Shown here: one piece after another, positions 44,732 through 46,885 of the stretch
Layout of the letters: every line of letters starts with the position of its first letter
Numbering within the stretch: the stretch's first letter is position 1
DNA from: Streptomyces sp. NRRL S-31
GTDB taxonomy: Bacteria > Actinomycetota > Actinomycetes > Streptomycetales > Streptomycetaceae
Direction of reading: 5' to 3'
Assembly: GCF_000718775.1 (NCBI RefSeq)
Contig: NZ_JOCB01000068.1
Location: forward strand, 1-46,885
Length of the DNA: 46,885 bases
Notes under the pieces: generated by a model
The model's database searches: none
Told to the model about the DNA's origin: nothing
Seen by the model: only the letters and a program-made list of their open reading frames with translations
Program-made: the position numbers and the translations under genes

Positions 44732-46885
44732 TCAGGCGTCGGCCGGGGCCGTCGTCAGCAGCGGCTCCAGGAACTCCGCGACCATGCCCGGCGTCGGCTG
44801 GTCGAAGAGCAGCATCACCGGCAGCTGGAGGCCGGTCGCCTCCGTCAGCCGGTTGCGCAGCTCCACGGCCGTCAGCGAGGTGAACCCGATGTCGAAGAAG
44901 CCGCTGTTCTCCTCGATCTCCTCCAGGTCGTCGTGGCCGAGCACGCCCGCGGCCGTCTGCCGCACCAGGTCGGTGAGCAGGTCGTACCGCTCGTCGGGGC
45001 CCAGCCCGGCCAGCCGCTCGGCCAGCACCTCGCCGGGCTCCCGCGCCTCCTCCCCGGGCAGCTGCCGCTCGACGGTCTCGCCGTTGCCGATCACGATGGA
45101 TGCCTCCAGCCAGTAGCGACGGTGTTGGAACGCGTAGGTGGGCAGGTCGGTGCGGCGGGCACCGGTGCCCTCCAGGACCCGGCCGAGGTCGGCCGGCAGC
45201 CCCCGCACCTGGAGCCGCGCGAGCGAGGTCAGGAACGTGGCCAGCCCGCCCTCGTCACGACGCAGCGACCCGGTGACCACGGCACCGCCCGGCGCCCCCT
45301 CCAGGGCCTGCTGCAACGCCGGGACCAGCACGCCGTGCGGGCTGCACTCCACCCATACCTGGTGGCCCCGCTCGCGCGCCACGGCCGCGGCGTCGGCGAA
45401 CCGCACCGTGCGGCGCAGGTTCTCGTACCAGTACTTGGCGTCGGTGTCGCCCGCGCTCAGCCACTCCAGGGTGACGGTCGACAGCATCGGCACCCGCGGG
45501 GCGCGCGGCTCCACCGGCGCCAGCAGGTCCAGCAGCTCCGTCCGCAGGTTCTCCACGTGCGGCGAGTGCGAGGCGTAGTCCACCGGGATGCGGCGCACCC
45601 GCACCCCCTCCTCGGCCAGTCGCGCGGAGAGCGCGTCCAGCGCCTCGACGCCGCCCGCGACCACCGTGAAACCGGGACCGTTGACCGCGGCCACCGACAG
45701 TTCCGCACTGAACGGCTCCAGACGCCGCTCCGTCTCGTCGGCCGGCAGGAACACGGTGGCCATCCCGCCCCGGCCCGAGATCGCGCCGATCGCCTTGCTG
45801 CGCAGCGCCACGACCCGGGCGGCGTCCTGGAGCGACAGCGCCCCGCTCACCGCCGCCGCGGCGATCTCGCCCTGCGAGTGCCCGATCACCGCGTCCGGCT
45901 CGACACCGTAGGAACGCCACAGCGCGGCCAGCGCCACCATCATCGCGAACGACGCCGGCTGCACGACGTCCACCCGGTCCAGCGCGGGCGCGCCCGCCGC
46001 CTGCCGCAGCACGTCGGTGAGCGACCAGTCGACGTACGGTGCCAGCGCCTCCTCGACCTCGGCGATCCGCGCGGCGAACACCGGCGACTCGTCCAGCAGC
46101 CGGGCACCCATCCCGGCCCACTGGGAGCCCTGGCCGGGGAAGACGAACACGGTCCGGCCCTCGACGTCCGCGGTGCCCCGCACCACCTGGGCGCCGGAGT
46201 CGTCCGCGGCCAGCCCGGACAGCGCGGCCAGCGCCTCCGACCGGTCCGCCGCGACCACCACGGCCCGCCGCTCGTGCGCCTCCCGCGTGGTGAGCAGGGA
46301 GTGCCCGACATCGGCCAGCGGCAGCCCCGGGTGGGCCACCAGGTGGTCGTGGAGCCGGGCCGCCTGCCCGCGCAGCGCCGCCGCCGACCGGGCCGACAGG
46401 GCCAGCGGGACGGCCACCGGCGTCTGTCGTGGGGCGGGGTCGGTGGTGTCGGCCTGCGGTTCGGGGGCTTCCTCGATGATGACGTGGGCGTTGGTGCCGG
46501 AGACGCCGAAGGAGGAGACGGCGGCGCGGGCGTGGCCGATGTTGGATTTGAGGGAGCCGAGCCAGAGGGGTTGGTCGGTGGGGCGGTCCTGGCCGTAGGT
46601 GGCGATGACGGCTTGTGCCTCGATGGGGTCGCCGAGTCTGGTGCCGGTGCCGTGGGCTTCGACGGCGTCTATGTCGTGGGTGGTGAGTCCGGCGTTGGCG
46701 AGGGCTTGGCGGATGACGCGTTGTTGGGAGGGGCCGTTGGGGGCGGTGAGGCCGTTGGAGGCGCCGTCCTGGTTGACGGCGGAGCCGCGGACGACGGCGA
46801 GGACGGGGTGGTTGTTGCGGCGGGCGTCGGAGAGGCGTTCCAGCAGGAGCAGGCCCGCGCCCTCCGACCAGCCGGTGCCGTCCGC
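44732..46885 (-). CDS. Modular type I polyketide synthase, terminal module KS-AT-ACP (N-terminal part off the window)
   Basis: 718 residues are open in one frame from the right edge to the stop at 44732. KS end: DGTGWSEGAGLLLLERL, VEAHGTGT and KSNIGH (both active-site His motifs), then directly RAAVSSFGVSGTNAHVI. The roughly 55-60 residues normally between KSNIGH and RAAVSSFG are missing in frame. AT: FPGQGSQWAGMG, GHSQGEIAAA, RVDVVQ and YASH, the last two being methylmalonyl-CoA signatures. ACP: GFTSLTAVELRNRL with the phosphopantetheine Ser (Thr instead of the usual Asp before it). No KR, DH, ER or thioesterase follows; the chain end LLTTAPADA is the protein end. It loads methylmalonyl and leaves a beta-keto group for the amide synthase. 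The KS Cys lies outside. Confidence 0.93.
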   Translation of the reverse strand, partial: ADGTGWSEGAGLLLLERLSDARRNNHPVLAVVRGSAVNQDGASNGLTAPNGPSQQRVIRQALANAGLTTHDIDAVEAHGTGTRLGDPIEAQAVIATYGQDRPTDQPLWLGSLKSNIGHARAAVSSFGVSGTNAHVIIEEAPEPQADTTDPAPRQTPVAVPLALSARSAAALRGQAARLHDHLVAHPGLPLADVGHSLLTTREAHERRAVVVAADRSEALAALSGLAADDSGAQVVRGTADVEGRTVFVFPGQGSQWAGMGARLLDESPVFAARIAEVEEALAPYVDWSLTDVLRQAAGAPALDRVDVVQPASFAMMVALAALWRSYGVEPDAVIGHSQGEIAAAAVSGALSLQDAARVVALRSKAIGAISGRGGMATVFLPADETERRLEPFSAELSVAAVNGPGFTVVAGGVEALDALSARLAEEGVRVRRIPVDYASHSPHVENLRTELLDLLAPVEPRAPRVPMLSTVTLEWLSAGDTDAKYWYENLRRTVRFADAAAVARERGHQVWVECSPHGVLVPALQQALEGAPGGAVVTGSLRRDEGGLATFLTSLARLQVRGLPADLGRVLEGTGARRTDLPTYAFQHRRYWLEASIVIGNGETVERQLPGEEAREPGEVLAERLAGLGPDERYDLLTDLVRQTAAGVLGHDDLEEIEENSGFFDIGFTSLTAVELRNRLTEATGLQLPVMLLFDQPTPGMVAEFLEPLLTTAPADA

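Follow-up and report, generated by a model that had tools for sequence, protein, structure and literature searches.

The terminal modules of the chaxamycin and rifamycin polyketide synthases (PKSs), CxmE and RifE, carry no thioesterase, and these ansamycin systems include amide-synthase-family, DAHP synthase and shikimate dehydrogenase-like genes. In the available text of PMC4551226, modules 9 and 10 of CxmE have the order KS-AT-DH-KR-ACP, and in the chaxamycin synthase the loading module has an adenylation domain and a KR that is predicted to be inactive. Being so repetitive, modular PKS genes are easily misassembled, as set out in the accessible portions of two reviews and a case study (PMC4849082, PMC5484115, PMC5082578). 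The Illumina draft of Streptomyces leeuwenhoekii C34, for instance, contains KS segments that recur and modules that are broken; a PacBio assembly of that strain served as the standard there (PMC4849082, in the accessible portion).

The window, that is, the whole stretch of DNA analysed here (46,885 nucleotides), is an entire contig (C68, 1-46885), one of 322 in a draft genome. Like the C34 draft, it belongs to an assembly in which KS segments recur and modules are broken; in this case the judgement rests on relatives and on the pattern of the assembly. The features of the window that concern us are collected in Table 1. The GHSQGEIAAA and YASH motifs of its AT domain are what we take to be a methylmalonyl-type signature. 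The module resembles those of CxmE and RifE in having no thioesterase, and amide-synthase-family, DAHP synthase and shikimate dehydrogenase-like genes lie on the same contig; unlike modules 9 and 10 of CxmE, it consists of KS-AT-ACP alone. By analogy with CxmF and RifF, the neighbouring gene of the arylamine N-acetyltransferase family may act as an amide synthase (PMC4551226, available text). The gene encodes a one-module KS-AT-ACP protein, with which an ansamycin-type PKS probably ends. The sequence-only reading that preceded this analysis had already called it the last PKS module, which is plausible from the domain order, the stop codon, the absence of a thioesterase and the amide-synthase-family gene close by.

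Table 1. Features around the KS junction and at the adjoining end of the window
Feature	Position	Strand	Basis
Partial KS-AT-ACP polyketide synthase gene (P0001, 717 aa), open at contig end	44732..46885	-	ORF, Pfam
KS C-terminal half through KSNIGHA	46529..46885	-	PF02801, positions 1-100 of 119 matched
Junction, 171 nt absent (57 residues, P0002 387-443)	46528..46529	-	comparison with P0002
KS domain end, RAAVSSFGVSGTNAHVIIEEAPEPQ, and start of KS-AT linker	46436..46528	-	translation
AT domain, GHSQGEIAAA and YASH	45200..46150	-	PF00698, residues 246-562
Acyl carrier protein, then stop, no thioesterase	44768..44968	-	PF00550, residues 640-706
FAD mono-oxygenase, 3-(3-hydroxyphenyl)propionate hydroxylase type	42992..44620	-	PF01494; NF004829 above cut-off
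Arylamine N-acetyltransferase family gene (family of ansamycin amide synthases)	42136..42924	+	PF00797

The minus-strand frame of the gene stays open across the junction in the KS, where its translation reads ...LWLGSLKSNIGHA|RAAVSSFGVSGTNAHVIIEEAPE... KSNIGHA meets RAAVSSFG in frame, the Ala codon closing with 46529 and the Arg codon opening with 46528, a position exact to within a few nucleotides; to the right of KSNIGHA, RAAVSSFGVSGTNAHV follows at once. The motif pair (KSNIGH and the VSSFG side) occupies 46505-46543, and KSNIGH is separated from VSSFG by 4 residues in the window as against 61 in the orthologue P0002. Both EAHGTGT and KSNIGH, motifs of modular type I (cis-AT) KS domains, are present, and the spacing of about 61 residues that is normal for such domains is not found in the window's record. 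We judge this short spacing to be an assembly loss. The sequence-only reading had described KSNIGHA as running directly into the following sequence without a frame change, with about 55-60 residues lacking after KSNIGH; the translation bears out the former, and the comparison with P0002 puts the loss at 57 residues (171 nt). It had also placed GCCGCC at both ends of the junction, which is correct for the right side, whereas the visible left flank, GGCCACGCC, has none. The absence of the segment is far from chance, yet what it characterises is the record, not evidently the organism.

P0002 emerged from a protein search, within a cluster of five sequences. It is a KS-AT-ACP protein of 1041 aa encoded on a contig of 7,170,233 bp; its domain order and C-terminus are those of P0001, and 709 of 717 residues are identical when the two are compared around the gap. 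Because the other 8 of the 717 differ, P0002 represents another strain. It departs from P0001 in having 57 residues between KSNIGHA and RAAVSSFG, namely its residues 387-443, exactly at the window's junction, and in having a complete N-terminus with a PF08990 domain. The active-site Cys motif DTACSSS is present in P0002; the N-terminal half of the window's KS, including the expected active-site Cys, falls outside the end of the contig. The segment is also intact in P0003 (7.46-Mb contig), P0004 and P0007, and in an alignment of 30 homologues ten of its columns are invariant (A389, A390, G391, K397, L407, P408, P416, W422, L430 and W436). P0005, another close relative (644 aa, on a 7384-bp contig of a different assembly), starts at MVQAIRHG, within the segment that C68 lacks, and that assembly may have broken at this repeat as well. 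When P0001 was compared with 60 relatives, the matches listed from outside its own genome did not exceed 59% identity. The AT-ACP part, sought in named genomes by a scan that may omit records very near the window's genome, gave at least 80 loci with 47-64% identity over their best segments, none of them a close orthologue.

From the relatives and from the assembly's own pattern we infer that the 171 nt are absent through an assembly error in the draft genome (probability about 0.93), and that the strain itself most likely has a complete, ordinary KS. Across the window and 18 further stretches of its genome, 20 KS domains or pieces reach at least 60% identity to the KS of P0002: 11 are complete, 6 are merely cut by a contig end, and 3 have internal losses (those of C80 and C201, and that of C68, which is also cut). 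Thirteen KS domains below 60% identity, which lie outside this count, each gave a one-piece alignment of nearly full length. The KS of C80 (L002/L152, about 40700-41090) matches P0002 through residue 443, where the frame changes, and lacks the VSSFGVSGTNAHV segment; the break is 382 bp from the contig end. The KS of C201 (L159, about 283-1378, on a 4-kb contig), whose first piece matches weakly (39%), has three losses of 17, 14 and 26 residues, about 0.55-1.2 kb from a contig end, the first two with a change of frame. Three of the four junctions in these two domains therefore change the frame. C68, for its part, ends inside the broken KS, 357 bp past the junction, so that its defect also lies near a contig end and within a repeated domain. 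Moreover, C80 retains the segment absent from C68 and loses one that C68 retains: C80 stops at 443 and C68 resumes at 444. Such complementary losses would be expected if similar repeats were each placed only once, and several KS domains, each without a different conserved segment, would fit a failure of assembly better than independent mutations.

Seven contig termini lie inside KS domains, and an overlap of exactly 99 bp joins three pairs of contig ends, C80 with C185, C84 with C175 and C184 with C13, with different sequences beyond. Overlaps of fixed length are the trace of a k-mer graph that breaks at repeats. C84, C184 and C13 start at KS positions 371-374, within the segment absent from C68 (351-407 on the same scale); the overlap between the ends of C184 and C175 is 31 bases, not 99. 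At the end of C68 no exact repeat of k-mer length was found in the window and the 18 stretches, where at most 14 bases are in common, and the longest exact match between the 360 KS bases of C68 and C80 is 44 bases. These short matches, like the 31-base overlap, count against an assembly error, and a collapse at k = 99 is thus not demonstrated for the C68 site. A search of the genome with the lost segment gave C185 (86%) and C80 (91% over 66 residues) as the best matches, so that no near-identical copy of it was found on another contig. The window and the 18 stretches contain zero N, so that any joins are not marked as gaps.

An assembly error could have arisen as follows. The window's KS resembles many KS stretches elsewhere in the genome, and the assembly probably failed to carry the repeated middle segment, fused the two sides and broke off the contig after another 357 bp. 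Candidate steps for the loss are repeat collapse, poor coverage of GC-rich DNA and the closing of a gap on a short overlap, and the reads would be expected to contradict the junction. A collapse of the assembly was one of two branches left by the sequence-only reading, and it gains support from the intact 99%-identical orthologue, the two further broken KS domains with their frame changes, the contig termini in KS domains and the three 99-bp overlaps.

The other branch, a real and recent in-frame deletion of 171 nt by slippage or recombination between short GC-rich repeats, which would have inactivated the KS and led to early release or to extension by another KS, is improbable. Two facts that count against an assembly error would suit it: the frame is kept across the junction, and the protein is otherwise without decay, with the identity to P0002 given above. 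The GCC-rich right flank and the lack of an exact repeat for the C68 end among the fetched stretches would also suit it. However, the assembly shows four comparable losses in two further KS domains, three of them with frame changes; the junction is 357 bp from the contig end; the lost segment includes the ten invariant columns; and a DNA pattern for the short junction matched, among 392 genomes of the genus, that of the window alone (G000). A deletion private to this strain is thus unlikely. Very improbable, too, is the more specific proposal that a true KS deletion in a terminal ansamycin-type module causes the last extension to be skipped, so that a chain one unit shorter is released; were it true, the natural product would have changed through the loss of one KS core. 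Nothing beyond the in-frame junction and the otherwise undecayed protein supports the suggestion that the KS cannot condense, with the last extension left out or taken over by another KS.

Spacing was also compared across larger sets. Among the best 120 of 7987 homologous proteins, KSNIGH spacing is 60-63 at 117 of 118 sites, the remaining site running off the end of its protein, and three of the 120 proteins have no KSNIGH match. In 99 fetched loci, spacing is 58-75 at 145 of 151 distinct sites, a count made after duplicates and any site that meets a stop inside 20 residues had been dropped; of the other six sites, four end with the locus, another is masked, and the last, in L091, carries VTSIG instead. 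A DNA pattern for normal spacing, which allowed a gap of 171-199 bases (the normal gap being 183), gave 139 matches in 33 of 61 genomes, seven of them in the window's own genome; that set differs from the 392 genomes and overlaps them in part, and the comparison of short and normal patterns is only relative, because the strict pattern misses many intact KS domains. A natural short KS subtype that functions without the segment in terminal ansamycin-type modules has next to no probability and was rejected, since no second example was found in these sets, the 99%-identical P0002 retains the segment, it is kept at every measurable site (117 of 117 and 145 of 145), and no support of any kind was found.

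An assembly error of this sort bears on the prediction of products. From the record as it stands, a dead or skipped last module would be wrongly inferred, and the record would equally suggest, wrongly, a broken KS after the loading module of C80. A cheap test is available, in which the spacing of KS motifs is set against a near-identical orthologue and the assembly is inspected for other broken KS domains and for contig ends that overlap exactly. The end of C80 carries an AMP-binding-KR-ACP loading module followed by a KS, and this loading module can be likened to CxmA (PMC4551226, available text). Because of this loading module and the gene set of the window (class II DAHP synthase, shikimate dehydrogenase-like and amide-synthase-family genes), C80 plausibly carries the beginning, and C68 the end, of a single ansamycin-type line.

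The ansamycin-like gene set lies at 30670-42924 on the plus strand. It comprises a BTAD (SARP-type) regulator, the shikimate dehydrogenase-like and class II DAHP synthase genes, and genes for MFS efflux, an acyltransferase_3 and an SDR, together with the arylamine N-acetyltransferase family gene. Elsewhere in the window, an SNF2/DUF3670 helicase adjoins a large SWIM zinc finger ORF (19758-25426, plus strand). Within 45200-46885 on the minus strand, the codons of the KS part, judged by eye, largely end in C (ACC, CCC) and those of the AT part more often in G, as if the KS had a different history, for example gene conversion among KS domains; concerted evolution is described as rendering the domains within one cluster alike (PMC4256081, in the accessible portion).
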